A DNA stretch of 64,000 nt, taken from Sanguibacter inulinus. Its GTDB lineage: Bacteria > Actinomycetota > Actinomycetes > Actinomycetales > Cellulomonadaceae. The stretch is taken from the NCBI RefSeq assembly GCF_013415325.1, contig NZ_JACBYE010000008.1, forward strand, positions 1 through 64,000. Direction: 5' to 3'. Shown in pieces: positions 47,860 to 56,376 of the stretch (its first letter is position 1; each line of letters begins with the position of its first letter). The position numbers and the translations under genes were made by a program. The notes beneath the pieces were generated by a model that was given only the letters and a program-made list of their open reading frames with translations, was not told where the DNA came from and ran no database searches.

Positions 47860-49002
47860 TCAGCGCACCGCCACCCCTCGACGTCCACCACGGGCGGGCA
47901 CCCGGTGACGGCCGACTGCTCCGGCGCGGGTGAGGGCCGCAGGCCTGACGGCGAACCACAGGCCCCACGTCAGTGCGCCGGACCACACCAGCCCCCACCA
48001 CGGGAACCCTGCGCCAGCGGCTCCCGCGACGATCACCGCTGCGGGTAGGTCTGCCTCGTCCACGCGGTGCGCCTGCACCAGCAACCTGTGGGTGTTGACA
48101 CCGATCGGCGTGCAGGTGACCAGGGTCAGCAGGTCAGCCCCAGGGACAGGTTGGAGCAGGTCGGTCTCGGTGGGCAGCACGGTGTCGATCCGGTCCACCT
48201 GGTAGGTGAGGGTCTCCCCCACCACCTCGACTGTCACCACGTCACCGGCGACCAGGTCGTGCAGGTCTGTGAAGAGCCGCGACTGCGGGATCCCGCTGTG
48301 ACCGGTCAAGACGCTGTTGGTGCCGGCACCTCCGACGGGCAGGGCTGATCCTTGAAGGTGCCCGACACCACGTTCGAGCGTCTCGTCGCTCGTGCCGTGG
48401 AAGACGGGGAGCGACGCACCGATGGTCGGGATGCGGAGCCGCGCCATCGTGTCGGAGGTCCCGAGCCGCAGCTGGTCGAGATAGTCGAGACCCGGGCCGT
48501 CCGACGCGCTGGCGGAGTCTGCCGGGCCAGTCGCCGTCTGCTCAGGCACTGCCGGGTCAGTCGCTGCCGGGTCGCCAGAAGCATCGGTCGTCTCGGTCAC
48601 CTCGGGTCCTCCTGACTCCTGCTCGGACTCGGCGGCCGGGGCTGCGGCCGCGGCTGTCGCTGCGGCCAACCCGTACGGGTCTTCGATGCGGTCGGTCGCG
48701 AGCGACCGGTTGTACTCGTGAGCCCGGTCGAGGATCTCCGACCGTTCGCCCGCAGGCAGCGAGTCGACAGTCTCGGTGTACCCGGACACCTCCGCCGCGT
48801 GGGCGCGGTCCGAGAACCAGTTCCCTGCCGAGGGATAGAGGAGGACCGATGCGCCGGCGACAGCGAGGAGCGCGACGAGCGACCGACGGACGACCGTCCC
48901 TCGGGGCGCGCGCGTCCGCGAGCGCTGGACGTTCCCCGCGCTGCGTCGGGGTGCCCGACGGGGCGCTCGATGGCTTGCTGCACGTGGTGGTCGCGGGGCC
49001 AC
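47860..49002 (-). CDS. Class C (pilus-assembling) sortase
   Basis: 380 aa from the GTG at 49002 (start uncertain; the frame continues upstream). An Arg-rich cytosolic start precedes a membrane helix (about 40-58) ending in the class C signature LLYPSAGNWFSDRAH. DPY in RIEDPYGL is the lid motif that plugs the active site. A 60-residue Ala/Pro/Glu/Ser insertion separates the lid from the catalytic core (MARLRIPTIGASLPVFHG). His235 (TGHSG), Cys297 (TLVTCTPIG) and Arg306 form the catalytic triad. A second membrane helix is at the C-terminus. It links the pilins encoded upstream; two hairpins separate it from them. Confidence 0.92.
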   Translation of the reverse strand: MAPRPPRAASHRAPRRAPRRSAGNVQRSRTRAPRGTVVRRSLVALLAVAGASVLLYPSAGNWFSDRAHAAEVSGYTETVDSLPAGERSEILDRAHEYNRSLATDRIEDPYGLAAATAAAAAPAAESEQESGGPEVTETTDASGDPAATDPAVPEQTATGPADSASASDGPGLDYLDQLRLGTSDTMARLRIPTIGASLPVFHGTSDETLERGVGHLQGSALPVGGAGTNSVLTGHSGIPQSRLFTDLHDLVAGDVVTVEVVGETLTYQVDRIDTVLPTETDLLQPVPGADLLTLVTCTPIGVNTHRLLVQAHRVDEADLPAAVIVAGAAGAGFPWWGLVWSGALTWGLWFAVRPAALTRAGAVGRHRVPARGGRRGVAVR

Positions 49003-49028
49003 GTCAGACCGTCCGTCCTGTCGTAGGT

Positions 49029-49063
49029 GAGAGGGTGCGGGGCTCGTGCCCGCGCACCCTCTC
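49029..49063 (-). terminator. Second hairpin between pilin and sortase genes
   Basis: A stem of about 15 bp with one bulged base (49029-49043 with 49048-49063) and a TCGT loop lies 27 bp before the sortase start. It could attenuate transcription or block the ribosome entry region. Confidence 0.55.
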
Positions 49064-49170
49064 CGTGAACACTGCACGTCGCGCGCCGCTCGTCTGGTGG
49101 CGACTGCTGTCGCCTCCCGTCCGGAGGTGGCGTCGTGCGCCTGCTGGCAGGAGGCGACTCCTGCGAGCTG

Positions 49171-49206
49171 CCGTCCGTAGGTGCCGTGAAGGGCACCTAC
49201 GGACGG
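49171..49206 (-). terminator. Perfect 15-bp hairpin after the major pilin gene
   Basis: Arms 49171-49185 and 49192-49206 are fully complementary around GTGAAG, 17 bp after the pilin stop. A partial terminator here would keep sortase expression well below pilin expression. Confidence 0.8.
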
Positions 49207-49222
49207 CCGACGGCGACCTCGA

Positions 49223-50650
49223 TCAGCGGTCCGCGCGCGACGAACGACGCGAGCGGATGCTGAGCGCGGCAGCGCCGACGAGCAGCAGGACGCCTGCCGC
49301 GATGATGGTCGTGACGCCCTGAGCACCTGTCATGGGGAGCTCGAAGCCGCCGTTCGCCTCGGTGTTCTCGATCGTGAGGTCGACGGTGGTGTCGTCGCTC
49401 GTCACCGTGAAGGCGATCGGCTCGGCCAGCAGCTCGTACCCGGACGGGGCGACGACCTCGACGAGGTAGTACTGGACCCAGTCCGCCGGGTCGTCGATCA
49501 CGACGTTGTCGACGATGTTCGAGTAGCCGAGCCCCGAGATCGTGAGCAGGCCGTCCTGAGCACTGGTCCACGTGCTGACGCCCCCGAGGGCGACCGGCTG
49601 GGTGCGGGTCCGAGCGTTCTCGAGAGACGTGAAGACCTGGAACTGAGCGCCGGAGAGAACCTGGCCCTCGGAGTTCACCTTCTGCGCGGTCATCGCGCCG
49701 AACTTCGTGACTGCCGGCGGGGTGACGACGGGGTTGCCCTCGTCGATGCTGGGCTGGTTCGGGAAGATCGAGGCGATGTTCTCGATCTCGCCGGCCTCGA
49801 GGACTGTCGTCTCGATGATCACCTGGACCTGTGCGCCCTCGTTGGCGGCGAGGACGTCGAGCCCTGCTGCTGTGAAGTCGACAGTCACGGTGTTCGTCGC
49901 GACGTCGAGCGCGGAGGTGTAGTGCACACCCTCGGTCAGCGTCGTGCCGTTGGTGAGCGTCGCCGTGGTCGACACGTGCTCGAGCCGAGAGTCGAGAGGA
50001 TCGACGACCCTGTAGGCATCGGTCCGTCCGCCGACAGGGATGTCGCCGGTGATGGTCCACGTCACGACGTCGCCGACCTTCGTGCCAGCGTCGGTGACGG
50101 TCTTGCCCGCCGTGGTGATGACGTTCTTCGGGTAGACGTGCACGTCGTACAGCCACTCACCCGAGGTCACCGGGTCGGTGAGCGGGAGCGTGACGAGGAA
50201 CGGCGCAGCGGCCCGTGCACCGGCCGGGGTGAGTGTCTCCTCGACGTAGTACAGACCGAGTGGAAGGTCGGAGAAGGTCAGCTGACCGTCGGCAGCGGTC
50301 ACGCCGCTGAGACCGGGGAGGCCGGCGACAGCGGAGGCAGCCGTGTCGACCGTCAGCTCGGCGGCCGAGGACCAGCCGGCGTTCGTCGTCAGGTCGATCC
50401 CGGGTACCTGGGTGGCCGTGAAGCCGACTCCTCCGAGCGCTGTGAGCCCGGTGAGGGCAGACGGGTCGATCTCGGTCCCGTCCGAGGGCAGGCCGGTCGG
50501 GGTCTCGGGGTGCTGGAACTTGTGGATCGACAGCGACGCGACGGATTCCGGGTCGATGGTGGTCGCCGCGACGGCGGGGGAACCGCCGACGCCGACGGCA
50601 GCCAGTGCGAGTGCTGCGACGAGCGCAGATCCGCGGAAGGTGAGTGCCAT
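49223..50650 (-). CDS. LPXTG-anchored major pilin (SpaH/EbpB type, isopeptide-forming)
   Basis: 475 aa. Signal peptide at 1-29 (cleavage after AVA). The pilin motif YPKN at 173-176 supplies the lysine that the sortase joins to the next subunit. Two or more Ig/CnaB-type domains follow, with E-box-like segments YYVEETLTPAG near 134 and YYLVEVVAPSGYELL near 385 that form internal isopeptide bonds. The sorting signal LPMTG is at 438-442, then a hydrophobic helix and an Arg-rich tail. It is the shaft subunit of a covalent pilus. AGGAG lies 10 nt before the ATG. A 105-bp gap separates it from the adhesin gene. Confidence 0.94.
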   Translation of the reverse strand: MALTFRGSALVAALALAAVGVGGSPAVAATTIDPESVASLSIHKFQHPETPTGLPSDGTEIDPSALTGLTALGGVGFTATQVPGIDLTTNAGWSSAAELTVDTAASAVAGLPGLSGVTAADGQLTFSDLPLGLYYVEETLTPAGARAAAPFLVTLPLTDPVTSGEWLYDVHVYPKNVITTAGKTVTDAGTKVGDVVTWTITGDIPVGGRTDAYRVVDPLDSRLEHVSTTATLTNGTTLTEGVHYTSALDVATNTVTVDFTAAGLDVLAANEGAQVQVIIETTVLEAGEIENIASIFPNQPSIDEGNPVVTPPAVTKFGAMTAQKVNSEGQVLSGAQFQVFTSLENARTRTQPVALGGVSTWTSAQDGLLTISGLGYSNIVDNVVIDDPADWVQYYLVEVVAPSGYELLAEPIAFTVTSDDTTVDLTIENTEANGGFELPMTGAQGVTTIIAAGVLLLVGAAALSIRSRRSSRADR

Positions 50651-50755: not shown

Positions 50756-53065
50756 TCAGCGCCTCCGCTTCCGGAGGGTGGTGAGGGACAGGGGGTGGCT
50801 TCGGGGCCCGAGGACGGCTGTCGCTGCGACAGCACCTGCGAGCAGGAGGAGCCCGACCGTGACGAGGCGACCTGCGCCCGCCGACCCGGTCTCGGGCATG
50901 TGGAAGGTGGGGACGTCGGTGACCGTAAGCTGTCCGCCCGAGGCCGCGACCTGAGGGGCGGAGGCCGGGTCGGGCAGCGTGACGGTGCCGTCTGCCGCCA
51001 CGTCGAACCTCACGGCGGTCGCGAGGAGCTCGTGCCCTGGCGGGGCGACCGTCTCTCGGAGCCAGTAGGTGCCCGGTGCGATACCCGGGATCTCGAAGGC
51101 CCCAGGGGCGTCGGCGACCGGTGACACGGGCAGAGAGTCGACGACCTCGCCGAGCGTCCCCTCCACGTCGGCAACCACCTCGAAGGCTGCGCCGTCAAGA
51201 GCGACGAGCTCATCGTTGACCTCACCCTGCTTGAGCAGCTCGAGACGCGCTGTCGTCGTCGTCGAGGTGGAGCAGGCAGGGTCGAGCGACGAGGAGCCCG
51301 CAGCGCAGGTGGACGGCGGGGTCGAGCCCGTGGCGGTGACGGTGTTGGCGAGCACGGTGCTCCACGCGTCGTCGTGGACGACGACGGAATAGCTGAGCGT
51401 CGCCGTGCTCCCTGCGCTGAGTGACGTCGGGCCGACCACCACGACGGGGTCCTGCGCTGTCGGGTCCGCCAGCTGCTCTCCAGGCTCGGACCCGACCGTG
51501 TACCGGACCGAGCCAGGGACGAGGTCAGCGTGGGCGAGCACGTCGGTGAGGTCGTCGGTCAGCACGACGTCTGCGACATCACCCGTCGTGCTCGTGGCCG
51601 TGACCGTGTAGGTGAGGGTGTCACCGGGTGATGGGTAGGTGGTGTCCCCCGAGCTCGTCACAGCCTTGGCGACCGACCAGTCTGCAGCGCTGACGGTGGT
51701 GAGGGTCTGGGCTGTGTTGTTGGTCAGGTCGAGGTCGGAGTCCACGCCGGACACCGAGGCCGTCGTGACGATCTCGGCGCCGGGCGTCACCGGCGCCGTG
51801 CCCCGCAGGGTGATCGGGCCGAAGCTCTCCCCGTCGCCGAGGACCTCACCGACAGCCGAGGGATCCCCACCGGAGAGGTTAGCGAGCGTCGCCATCGCGG
51901 CGTCCTGGCTGACGGTCCAGCCCGGCGGGGCGACCGCGCACGAGAGGTCTCGGCCGTCGAGGACGCATCCCTCGGGAGCGTCGACGAGGACGACCTCAGC
52001 GACCTCCTCGGGGACCACGTCGGCGACGATGAGACCGTGCGACGCGGACGGTCCGACGTTGGTGGCCTCGAGCGTCCACTCGAAGGTCTCTCCAGGGGAG
52101 ACCGTCGCCGGAGCAGCTGTCGAGACCGCCAGGTCCACGACGTCGGCACTGGTGGTCAGGCTGAAGCGGGGCTGGGCGAGCGTGTTGGACGAGTGATTCC
52201 CTGAGGCGTCGAGCGCCGTGATCTTCACGACGTGGTCGAGCCTGAGCGTCACGCTCGAGACGAGCCCGGTCACCTGGACGCCCGCGTAGCCGGCCGGGCT
52301 GTCGAGGACGGCGCGGCAATTTGCAGGGTCGGACTCGAAGTCGTAGACCACGGTGCCACCATCGAAGGCCTTCACGGAGTCGGCCGTGCTGACAAGCTCT
52401 AGCCGCTGTCCGTCGGGGGCCGTGCCGTCGATCCCCGCGATCGCGACGTCTTGCCAGGTGAGGTAGCACTGAGGCCTGAGGTTGTCGGCATTCGGGACCG
52501 GCCCGAAGAGCCCCGTGGCGACCCAGAGGATGGGGTCAACAGTCGGACGCTCGAAGGTCACGGTCGCTTCACGCTGTCCGCACGTCTTCTGATAGCCGAC
52601 CGTCGGTCGCGGACGTGACGGAATCTCCTGGAGGCAGCTCGCAGTCTCGGGGTTGAGGTCGGTCGGAGCGTCGGGGAGAGCCGAGACAACCGGGGTCAAC
52701 GGGGCACGGACGAACTGCTGAGACCGTCCAGCCGTGAGCCGGTCCGACTCGGGGCCCACGAGATGGACCGATCCGACGCCTCCAGGGAGCTCGGCGGACG
52801 CGGAGTTGCTGTCGGCTGCCGGGGCCCAGCCGGACACGACAGCCTGCCCGAGCTCACCAGGACTGAGAGCCCTGGATGCCCACCCGGGGTCCCGCGCGAG
52901 GTCGAGACGCTGAGCTGCGACCTCTCCGCCGGCAGCCTGCACGCTGCCCGCCGTGAGCAGAGATGCAAGCACCACCAGGGATGCCGCGGTCGCTGCGTGG
53001 CGTCTGCCTCGGGTGGGGCGTAGGGCGCCGCCGCTGGACGCGCGGGCTCTGCGTGGTGCTCTCAC
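50756..53065 (-). CDS. Large LPXTG-type surface adhesin / pilus tip protein (MPETG)
   Basis: 769 aa from the GTG at 53065; the start is uncertain because the frame continues and the RBS is weak. A signal peptide ends near residue 45 (LTAGSVQAAG). The body has a Cys-containing N-terminal region, then DUF11-type repeats (ATVSPGETFEWTLEATNVGP; YPSPGDTLTYTVTATSTTGD; SAGSTATLSYSVVV). It ends in a CnaB/SpaA-like domain with ARLELLKQG and TYWLRETVAPPGHELL. The sorting signal is the variant MPETG at 723-727, followed by a helix and RKRRR. It is probably the tip adhesin assembled on the pilin encoded next. Confidence 0.88.
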   Translation of the reverse strand: MRAPRRARASSGGALRPTRGRRHAATAASLVVLASLLTAGSVQAAGGEVAAQRLDLARDPGWASRALSPGELGQAVVSGWAPAADSNSASAELPGGVGSVHLVGPESDRLTAGRSQQFVRAPLTPVVSALPDAPTDLNPETASCLQEIPSRPRPTVGYQKTCGQREATVTFERPTVDPILWVATGLFGPVPNADNLRPQCYLTWQDVAIAGIDGTAPDGQRLELVSTADSVKAFDGGTVVYDFESDPANCRAVLDSPAGYAGVQVTGLVSSVTLRLDHVVKITALDASGNHSSNTLAQPRFSLTTSADVVDLAVSTAAPATVSPGETFEWTLEATNVGPSASHGLIVADVVPEEVAEVVLVDAPEGCVLDGRDLSCAVAPPGWTVSQDAAMATLANLSGGDPSAVGEVLGDGESFGPITLRGTAPVTPGAEIVTTASVSGVDSDLDLTNNTAQTLTTVSAADWSVAKAVTSSGDTTYPSPGDTLTYTVTATSTTGDVADVVLTDDLTDVLAHADLVPGSVRYTVGSEPGEQLADPTAQDPVVVVGPTSLSAGSTATLSYSVVVHDDAWSTVLANTVTATGSTPPSTCAAGSSSLDPACSTSTTTTARLELLKQGEVNDELVALDGAAFEVVADVEGTLGEVVDSLPVSPVADAPGAFEIPGIAPGTYWLRETVAPPGHELLATAVRFDVAADGTVTLPDPASAPQVAASGGQLTVTDVPTFHMPETGSAGAGRLVTVGLLLLAGAVAATAVLGPRSHPLSLTTLRKRRR

Positions 53066-53168
53066 TGGATCGGTCCGTCCTTCGGTGCGGTGATGTTCTC
53101 TCGGTGACAAGACGTTCTGGACCGCCGTCGGCATGACGGGAGAATCAGCACCGATCCCTGGTTGACCG

Positions 53169-53266: not shown

Positions 53267-55051
53267 TCAGACGGAGACGGAGATGCTCCGCACGGCCCCG
53301 ACGCGGCCCTGCACCAGGTCGACGTAGCGCAGCTCGACGTTGTGGGTCCCAGAGGGGACAGCGGACAGGGGGACACGCGTCGTGCAGCTCCCGAGTACCA
53401 CAGACGCCGCGCGGTCGGTCCCGACCACCGACGCCTCGACCGCCTGCCCGCAGGTCCCCGTCACGAGGACGACGACGTCGTGCACACCGGTCTGGCTCTC
53501 GACGACCTCGACACCTGTCACCAGCGGCGCGACGACCGTGTACCTGCCGACGTCGACCAGGTGCCGGTCACCCTCGTAGCGGACGGCGACCGCGTGCTCG
53601 ACGTCCGCTGCGAGGGAGGCGTCGAGCTCGATCGACCATGCCCCGTCGGTGACCTGGGCCGAGCCGACGGGCGACCCGTCGGCCAGCACGGCCTCGACCG
53701 TCGACCCGGACGTCCCGGTCCCGCTGATCACGGGCACCCATTCCTGCAGGCCTGAGGCGGGCGCGCCAGTCACGTCGAGGGGCACGTCTGCATCGAGAGA
53801 CGACGTCGCTGCGTCGCGCGGCGGCGGTGGCACACCCACCTCGGACGTCGTGGTGGTGCCGGGCGGTGCGGAAGGCGCGGAGGTCGTGCCCGGTGCAGGC
53901 GAGTCGGCGGCGGGCGCCCCGGTTTCGCTCTCGGTACCAGGATCGTCCGAGGCCGAGGGCGCCGTCAGGATCTGAGCCGGGTCGGCGGATCCCGTCACTG
54001 GTCCAGCCGAAGCCGAGGACGGGCTGCGGTCGAGGAGGACGACCCCGGCGCCGACTGCGACGGCTGTCATCACCACCACGGCCACGGCGGCCGCGACCCG
54101 CCGGCTCACTGCCAGTGACGTCATCCTCCACGGGGCGCCGGACGAAGCCTCGCCGAGAGCCGCGCGACCGGGCACGTCGCTGACAGGCCGATGGTCGACG
54201 ACAGCACCGCCGACAGACCCCACGTCGCCAGGCAGCGCGACCGGGACCCCCGCGAGCAGATGCTCGGCCGCCGCTCCCCCGGTGAAGAAGACCGGCAGGA
54301 GGACCGCGGGGAGCCGCCGAGCGACGGCGGCGATCTCGGTCGCGGTGCGAGCGCAGTCCTGGCACGTGGCGGTGTGGGCGTCGATGCGGTCCTGATGGCG
54401 CGGGGTCGCGTGGCCCCGCTCAGAGAGCGGGAGGTGCTCGACGACCCAGCGGCACTCCGGGCCCCGCTCGCTGCCCCCGACGTGCGCTGCGAGCCACGAC
54501 CTGCGCAGCCCTTCCCGCGCGCGTCGGACGAGGGCAGCCCCGGCGTTCGGAGCTATCCCGAGCCTGTCAGCAGCATCCTGGACAGGCATGTCCTCGACCT
54601 CTGTCATCCAGAGGATCGCCCGCCACCTCTCGGGCAAGGACTGGAAGGCCTTCACCAGGACCACCCTGTCTGCACTCTGCTCGTCGTGGCCGGGGACCGA
54701 GACGTCGAGCCTGTCGGCGAGCTCGGTCAGGCCACCGACAGGTTCGGCGCGACGGCGACGCGAGATGCTGACCGCGACGTTGCGCACGGTCCGAGCCAGG
54801 TAGGGGCGGAATCCGCGCGTGGGACCGCCACCGTCGCAGACCGCTGTGAACACGGCCTGGAATGCCTCTTGGACGATGTCCTCGGGGTCGGCGATCGTCG
54901 AGTAGCGGCCCGCGACCGCGAGCGCGACGCGCACGTGCCTGCGCCAGAGCTCGCCGTACGCGTCCCTCTCGCCGGCACGGACGCTGACCAGGAGGTCTTC
55001 GTCGGTGGTGGCTGAGCTGACGAACCCGCCCAGGTGCGCGTCGGTCGTCAC
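53267..55051 (-). CDS. ECF sigma factor fused to zinc-finger anti-sigma, membrane helix and Ig-like ectodomain
   Basis: 594 aa. Residues 20-100 are sigma region 2 (YGELWRRHVRVALAVAGRY, ADPEDIVQEAFQAVF). Residues 130-190 are region 4 (LPERWRAILWMTEVEDMPVQ, ADRLGIAPNAGAALVRRARE). Then comes an anti-sigma zinc motif with Cys200, His226, Cys230 and Cys233 (the H-x3-C-x2-C pattern). A membrane helix (about 318-341), a 90-residue Ser/Pro/Thr linker and an Ig-like ectodomain (from about 435; VPVISGTGTSGSTVEAVLADG) follow. The sigma factor is thus tethered to the membrane and must be freed by proteolysis to act. GTGA overlap couples it to the upstream exported-protein gene; the pilus genes follow 201 bp downstream. 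Confidence 0.9.
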   Translation of the reverse strand: MTTDAHLGGFVSSATTDEDLLVSVRAGERDAYGELWRRHVRVALAVAGRYSTIADPEDIVQEAFQAVFTAVCDGGGPTRGFRPYLARTVRNVAVSISRRRRAEPVGGLTELADRLDVSVPGHDEQSADRVVLVKAFQSLPERWRAILWMTEVEDMPVQDAADRLGIAPNAGAALVRRAREGLRRSWLAAHVGGSERGPECRWVVEHLPLSERGHATPRHQDRIDAHTATCQDCARTATEIAAVARRLPAVLLPVFFTGGAAAEHLLAGVPVALPGDVGSVGGAVVDHRPVSDVPGRAALGEASSGAPWRMTSLAVSRRVAAAVAVVVMTAVAVGAGVVLLDRSPSSASAGPVTGSADPAQILTAPSASDDPGTESETGAPAADSPAPGTTSAPSAPPGTTTTSEVGVPPPPRDAATSSLDADVPLDVTGAPASGLQEWVPVISGTGTSGSTVEAVLADGSPVGSAQVTDGAWSIELDASLAADVEHAVAVRYEGDRHLVDVGRYTVVAPLVTGVEVVESQTGVHDVVVLVTGTCGQAVEASVVGTDRAASVVLGSCTTRVPLSAVPSGTHNVELRYVDLVQGRVGAVRSISVSV

Positions 55052-56376
55052 TGGTGCCCACCGCGCTGGCTCGCCGAGGTGAGGTGCCGCTCTGCGACGT
55101 CGTCAGCCACGGGGTCCTGGGCTCGGAAGAGGTCGACCGTCGTGCAGGAGGTCTCGGAGGTGGTTCCGGTGAGGTCTGTCGCTGTGGCCTCGACGAGGTG
55201 CCCGTGGACGAAGTCCATGGCTGGCGGCTGGACGACCCATCCCCCGTCCTGCTCGACTGTCGTCCGGGAGGTCGAGCCGTCGGGGAACGTGACGGCGATG
55301 GTGTCCCCGGGGACCCCGTGCCCCGTGAACCGGTTCCCGTCGGTCGGGTCGATCTCGGGCGCGCTCGGCTGTCGCGGACCGATGGTGGGTGCACCCTCCG
55401 ACGGGATCTCGGCAGGTTCCTCAGAGGGCACGAAGGTCCCGTCGCTCTGCGGACCGATCGGGGTGCTGTGTCGCGCGACGACCTCGAAGGTGGGGGTGGC
55501 CGAGGCCTGGTCTGAGACGGCGATCTCCGTGATCTCGCCGTGCGCGTGGGAACCGAAGGCGAGCTGTCCGTCGCCTGTCGACCACGCGACCCCGAACACC
55601 GTGCCGGTCCCCGGTCCGACAGTCCCCTCCGGCAACGTCCATGCTGTGGCAGAACCGTCGACGGGGTCGACCCGGACGATCGTCTGCCCGTGGACACCCC
55701 AGAGGTACCCGCCGGACGGAGCGAGGTCGCCGAGCCGAGCACCATCGGGCAGGTCCAGCGGAGTCATGGTCTCCGCGAAGGTCCCGTCTGCGGCGATGTC
55801 GACGGCGAGCAGGACATCTCGTCCGCCCGCGTCTGGCACGTCTGCGACCACGGCCAGGTAGGTGTCGGAGTACACGCCCTCGCCGAAGGTCCCGCCGGTG
55901 ACGGTGCCGTGCTGGCCGGCCAGGCTCGCGAGCGCACCGAGGCGCGTGATCGCCCCTGCTGCGTCGAGCACGACGAGATGGACGTCGGCCTGACCGTGGG
56001 AGATCTCGACGGCGTAGAGCCTGCCGTCGCTCGCCTTGGAGGCGAGCCCATGGTGAGCCGCACCTCCAGGGGTGCCGGCACCGACAGGTGAGAAAGAGAG
56101 CGACGAGCCGGTCCGTGTCCCAGCAGAGAGCCGGGTCGACAGACTCGTCCCTGAGGACATGTAGACCACTCCGGGCCGAGGAGCCACGAGAACTTTCGCG
56201 ACCCCTGCCGCTGGACCGCCGGCTGCGAAGACCAGACCGCCGGCGACGACGACCGCGAGAGCACAGCGAGCCCGGCTGCCGACTCCTCCCGACGCTGCAC
56301 GGTGGGACTCCTCGGGAGGTGCCGACCGGCGGCGAGCAGTGGTCATCAGGCGTGCGGTCGTTCCATCCATGGTCAC
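55048..56376 (-). CDS. Exported DUF6923/beta-propeller-like protein with Ig-like C-terminus
   Basis: 442 aa from the GTG at 56376 (GAGGAG 5 nt upstream; ATG 56370 possible). An N-terminal signal segment at about 30-52 is followed by strand-rich repeats like a propeller (RLYAVEISHGQADVHLVVLD, YLAVVADVPDAGGRDVLLAV, GYLWGVHGQTIVRVDPVDG). The final 75 residues are an Ig-like domain (FTGHGVPGDTIAVTFPDGST) like the ectodomain of the sigma fusion protein. There is no LPXTG motif or C-terminal helix, so it is secreted. Its stop overlaps the sigma gene start by 4 nt; a role in its signalling is an inference. Confidence 0.72.
   Translation of the reverse strand: MTMDGTTARLMTTARRRSAPPEESHRAASGGVGSRARCALAVVVAGGLVFAAGGPAAGVAKVLVAPRPGVVYMSSGTSLSTRLSAGTRTGSSLSFSPVGAGTPGGAAHHGLASKASDGRLYAVEISHGQADVHLVVLDAAGAITRLGALASLAGQHGTVTGGTFGEGVYSDTYLAVVADVPDAGGRDVLLAVDIAADGTFAETMTPLDLPDGARLGDLAPSGGYLWGVHGQTIVRVDPVDGSATAWTLPEGTVGPGTGTVFGVAWSTGDGQLAFGSHAHGEITEIAVSDQASATPTFEVVARHSTPIGPQSDGTFVPSEEPAEIPSEGAPTIGPRQPSAPEIDPTDGNRFTGHGVPGDTIAVTFPDGSTSRTTVEQDGGWVVQPPAMDFVHGHLVEATATDLTGTTSETSCTTVDLFRAQDPVADDVAERHLTSASQRGGHQ

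Follow-up and report, generated by a model that had tools for sequence, protein, structure and literature searches.

A one-piece, membrane-anchored ECF sigma/anti-sigma factor at a sortase-pilus locus of Sanguibacter inulinus, and the surface-protein genes beside its relatives

According to PMC5826349 and the available part of PMC8999054, fused sigma/anti-sigma factors with a membrane helix have already been described for the actinobacterial groups ECF48, ECF52 and ECF53, and the latter source places these groups under the mechanism 'activated by proteolysis'. Such fused groups are numerous in Actinobacteria, and one characterised member was found, namely SCO4117 of Streptomyces coelicolor (ECF52), in which an ECF sigma factor, a zf-HC2 domain (pfam13490), a membrane helix and a Pro-rich extracytoplasmic region are joined in one chain, as in the protein described here, and for which proteolytic release was proposed (PMC5826349). 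Unlike our protein, SCO4117 ends in a carbohydrate-binding module; it controls development and secondary metabolism, and no link to sortase pili is described for it (PMC5826349). The actinobacterial ECF48 and ECF53 proteins similarly possess a C-terminal zinc-finger anti-sigma domain, one or two membrane helices and long extensions, and the available part of the source mentions no link to sortase pili (PMC8999054). The same part presents IutY of Pseudomonas putida (ECF243), also a one-chain sigma/anti-sigma protein, as the experimentally characterised case of the mechanism that is freed by regulated intramembrane proteolysis, although it serves Gram-negative iron-starvation cell-surface signalling (PMC8999054). 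In SigI/RsgI of Clostridium thermocellum, an outer domain senses the surroundings and cleavage frees the sigma factor for extracellular machinery, much as in the model proposed below, but the sigma and anti-sigma are separate proteins, the sensing is of carbohydrate, and the targets are cellulosome genes rather than pili (PMC12203970).

The window, i.e., the whole stretch of 64,000 nucleotides of Sanguibacter inulinus DNA that was analysed, contains the following relevant features.

47860..49326 (-): class C sortase gene, by profile match; the true start is probably inside the frame
49223..50650 (-): SpaH/EbpB major pilin gene, LPMTG, by profile match
50756..53095 (-): SpaA/DUF11/DUF7927 pilus adhesin gene with an MPETG-type sorting signal, by profile matches
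53111..53138, approximate (-): CGTCAT-N19-GTC before the adhesin gene, like the class element described below but with the wrong spacing, and possibly there by chance
53267..55051 (-): fused ECF sigma/zinc anti-sigma/membrane helix/Pro-Ser-Thr linker/two Ig-like domains; 594 aa, GTG start
53270..53776 (-): the two Ig-like domains, aa 426-594, from the AlphaFold2 model and a C-terminal signature conserved in relatives
54032..54088 (-): single membrane helix, aa 322-340, by hydropathy
54350..54454 (-): zf-HC2 or ZAS-type zinc domain, aa 200-234 (C200, H226, C230, C233), by Pfam and residue conservation
54512..54949 (-): sigma regions 2 (aa 35-101) and 4 (aa 132-180), by Pfam and a confident AlphaFold2 fold
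55048..56376 (-): secreted protein gene with an N-terminal export signal, a DUF6923 propeller-like repeat and a Big_6 Ig domain, by Pfam; GTGA overlap with the sigma gene

The original prediction of one 594-aa frame carrying ECF sigma regions 2 and 4, an anti-sigma-type zinc motif and one membrane helix was confirmed by Pfam and hydropathy. Sigma70_r2 (aa 35-101, 28.2 bits) and Sigma70_r4_2 (aa 132-180, 32.9 bits) both scored above their curated cut-offs, with no region 3 present, and the zinc-finger anti-sigma domain (zf-HC2, aa 200-234, 25.3 bits against a curated cut-off of 22.2) lies C-terminal to region 4. The single helix (aa ~322-340) is followed by a long outer extension, in which a Pro/Ser/Thr-rich linker precedes the Ig-like domains; of the latter, Pfam detected a Big_6 match at aa 441-483 that was below cut-off (18.6 bits). 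In an AlphaFold2 model built with 36 sequences, the helices of the sigma and zinc domains had a pLDDT of 80-97, the linker was disordered, and beta sandwiches were seen at aa 426-506 and 510-594 with a pLDDT of about 90 or more. Thus, the Ig-like fold that had been proposed for the ectodomain was borne out, but with two domains instead of one. The Foldseek matches of the model were sigma/anti-sigma structures and Ig/FnIII-like pairs, the latter including a biofilm-associated protein. The membrane region and the relative placement of the domains were of low confidence (pTM 0.40), and the model therefore cannot show how the zinc domain docks. A split of the frame near residues 195-235 by a frameshift or assembly artefact could be ruled out, since the third-position GC is high over the full length of the frame, and C200, H226, C230 and C233 show little or no variation among relatives that are fused over the same junction. 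The protein has the common features of the ECF48/52/53 type, to which it was matched by architecture; the fusion with its membrane helix was correctly recognised, although it is less unusual than first implied.

The gene neighbourhood also agreed with what had been predicted. The sigma gene overlaps the upstream secreted-protein gene by GTGA at 55048-55051, and the secreted product has a DUF6923 repeat (108.7 bits) followed by a Big_6 domain (28.7 bits, above cut-off). Downstream of the sigma gene and on the same strand, the adhesin, pilin and sortase genes were confirmed by profile matches (SpaH/EbpB pilin, 354.9 bits against a cut-off of 95; class C sortase, 233.7 bits against 160), such that a sortase-assembled pilus locus adjoins the sigma gene, with a class C sortase as well as an adhesin and a major pilin.

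We lean, with slightly better than even confidence, towards the reading that this protein is a single-chain transmembrane switch of the ECF48/52/53 type that transcribes surface-adhesin genes, here those of the SpaA-SpaH-SrtC pilus. In this model, the cytoplasmic zinc domain would keep the sigma domain membrane-bound and inactive until the Ig-Ig ectodomain sensed a change outside the cell, upon which regulated proteolysis would free an active sigma fragment to transcribe genes for the surface adhesins of the cell. The targets at this locus would be the SpaA-SpaH-SrtC genes, perhaps joined by the sigma factor's own gene and that for the secreted DUF6923 protein. A gene of the M50 family (site-2 protease type) is present in the genome of the organism. 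The observations on which the model is built are the architecture, the conservation of the fused class, the repeated occurrence of its members next to genes for sortase-anchored proteins, and a promoter-like element that is common to sigma genes and adjacent surface-protein genes in relatives. The signal could also be of another kind, in that, as has been proposed for ECF52/53, the ectodomain may sense the cell wall or a carbohydrate; ricin-type lectin ectodomains indeed occur in some fused relatives on Streptomyces plasmids (L115, L116), and ECF52 SCO4117 has its carbohydrate-binding module (PMC5826349), but Pfam found no carbohydrate-binding family in the window protein, and we regard this alternative as rather improbable.

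A related fused frame was present in 39 of 59 relatives, and these frames were of two kinds, short (about 500-850 aa) and long (about 900-1800 aa). The long kind is mostly located near upp/tadA-like genes, and a fewest-change count on the tree gave it three changes for 30 rows. Many members of the short kind have the Ig-Ig ectodomain in common, and ectodomains of the Ig type are the norm in this sub-group. This bears directly on the secreted protein, to which the original prediction had assigned a special role as partner. If it were a dedicated signal, it would bind the Ig ectodomain and trigger or block its cleavage; the translational GTGA overlap and the Big_6-type fold found in both proteins are in keeping with such a role. 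However, no relative of the secreted DUF6923 protein adjoins any other fused sigma gene in the loci compared, its nearest relatives being stretches of 700-1500-aa frames, and, since such ectodomains are the norm in the sub-group, the Ig fold common to both proteins says little for a partnership. The idea of a conserved partner was thus rejected and a signalling role appears quite improbable; the protein is best regarded as one more product of the surface system.

Linkage of fused sigma genes to pilus or adhesin genes was found at several other loci. On the Arthrobacter alpinus plasmid NZ_CP013746, the SpaA-SpaH-SrtC genes lie divergently from one fused sigma gene, and another SpaA protein is encoded next to a second fused sigma gene; a pilus or SpaA-adhesin neighbour was also seen on a plasmid of Paenarthrobacter sp. 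OM7 and in Arthrobacter sp. MI7-26 (L145). In a relative from the same family (G014, locus L081, which was added by hand as its membrane helix was below the threshold of the script), a SpaA/DUF7927 adhesin gene lies directly upstream of a fused Ig-Ig sigma gene. Neighbours with sortase-type motifs were encountered in L064 and L065 (LAHTG/LARTG), L132 (an SdrD-like protein with LAHTG), L066 (a 2503-aa protein with LPRTG), L115 (LAATG), and contig C21 of the window organism's own genome (L023), where the adhesin has nine DUF7507 repeats and LPTTG. The surface proteins at L064:7539-9113 and L065:10542-12146 belong to no convincing Pfam family and, by eye, may hold a thioester-type adhesin domain. 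When counted with a strict motif, an LPXTG-type neighbour was found within three genes in 9 of 54 short-class loci, compared to 11 of 1419 other genes of the same loci (0.8% per gene); the difference between the short class and the long class (1/30) was not significant (Fisher p 0.09). Judged by the well-supported branches of the tree, the pilus-linked members must be placed in two or more separate positions. Conversely, most short-class members have no surface-gene neighbour, none of 34 other SpaH-type pilus regions, sampled among 149 genomes of the order, had a fused sigma gene, and the sigma/pilus pair was absent from all five genomes of the same genus. From the linkage in separate lineages, the many unlinked members and the 34 pilus regions taken together, the coupling is recurrent, but it concerns a minority on both sides.

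Promoter sequences were then considered. The word CGTCAT occurs upstream of 26 of the 55 short-class sigma genes, where 5.9 were expected and 200 shuffles gave a maximum of 13; no such enrichment exists upstream of the long-class sigma genes. Anchoring on CGTCAT exposed a GTC 17 bases downstream, and the full element, CGTCAT-N17-GTC, is found upstream of 15 of the 55 genes at exactly this gap, as against 0-3 at other gaps, although these 15 regions are not fully independent, since the sigma genes are related, even though they span two families. In its reversed form, the element precedes none of the 55 genes, compared to 12 forwards in the same windows. It had not emerged from a blind gapped-word search of 18 upstream regions, which did not exceed shuffles, and became visible only with the larger set of sigma genes. 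By its sequence, the element resembles an ECF -35/-10 pair and suggests autoregulation. It also precedes four adjacent surface-protein genes, namely those of L064 and L065 (an orthologous pair), L132, and L063 (a divergent DUF11-like gene). Overall, it was found before 13 of 196 genes located up to two places from a short-class sigma gene, as opposed to 13 of 1652 other genes (p 4e-7), with the proviso that some of the called neighbours may not be real genes. Since each genome holds about 27-42 occurrences of the element, some of them due to chance, it defines no regulon by itself.

The exact element was absent before the sigma operon and the adhesin gene of the window. The CGTCAT-N19-GTC before the adhesin gene carries little weight, because 7% of genes have CGTCAT alone within 200 bases upstream. 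Nor was a motif common to the two upstream regions detected beyond chance in a two-block search against shuffles, and a sigma-70 promoter scan found nothing. A 9-mer shared by the regions in front of the adhesin and secreted-protein genes (before 53095 and 56376), CGGTCAACC, was rejected as a promoter, as its 8-mer is near chance level in the window (4 found, 1.6 expected) and the two-block search did not exceed shuffles. The predicted coupling of the sigma factor to pilus and surface genes is supported by the recurrent linkage and shared promoter element of the relatives, but not by the exact element at its own promoters, and since the partner protein is not conserved either, control of the pilus by the window sigma factor is probable by analogy.

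These same results must be weighed in favour of a different explanation, in which the protein is an ordinary fused ECF factor whose regulon serves the envelope or cell wall in general and lies elsewhere in the genome, and its pilus neighbourhood is an accident of gene order. Most members of the class adjoin unrelated genes, and the missing promoter element, the 34 pilus regions lacking a fused sigma gene and the five same-genus genomes lacking the pair all agree with it. Nonetheless, accidental placement does not sit well with a linkage that recurs in separate lineages, or with a class promoter element in front of adjacent surface-protein genes in several relatives, and we consider this explanation a real but lesser possibility. 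While the architecture is already known, the association with surface genes and the predicted promoter of the sub-group look new; no report of a fused ECF factor linked to sortase pili was found in the open-access literature, a scope that probably excludes the main ECF classification papers. The predicted element and its adjacent surface-gene targets make the regulon of the class directly testable and, if true, the regulon would connect the expression of pili and adhesins with a transmembrane transcription switch made of a single protein.

There is also a bolder reading, which we regard as a long shot: the one-piece membrane sigma factors of this sub-group may constitute local, self-reading adhesion circuits, each controlling its adjoining adhesin or pilus through a CGTCAT-N17-GTC-type promoter, while the outer domain reads the state of that product. 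The extreme case would be the paralogous fused sigma factor of contig C21 (L023:8640-10559, + strand), the ectodomain of which consists of a DUF7507 repeat of the kind present nine times in the adhesin encoded directly upstream, and the C-terminal end of which, with LSTTG, a hydrophobic stretch and RRAR, is a lookalike of a sortase signal; such a protein could have one anchor in the membrane and another in the wall, and serve to sense tension. The idea that ectodomains as a rule duplicate a domain from the protein encoded next to them was rejected, as by sequence only this paralog fits (94 bits).

A few minor observations were made on the wider class. Small sigma-plus-zinc genes without a membrane helix adjoin several of the fused sigma genes (L022:9690-10577, L114:10326-10946, L084:11050-11535 and L023:2827-3699), and that of L022 has the CGTCAT-N17-GTC element. 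A gene for a PrsW-family intramembrane protease (L116:12361-13845) lies near a ricin-lectin fused sigma gene on a Streptomyces plasmid. In the sigma tree, L127, from a contig titled Planococcus sp. APC 4015, is nested within Microbacterium; this contig probably carries a wrong label or contamination. Lastly, the long-class loci L069-L100 encode very long fused sigma proteins of about 1200-1800 aa, with about one such gene per genome across the family, and have conserved upstream words of their own, namely TGGTAC, TACCAG and CCAGTC.
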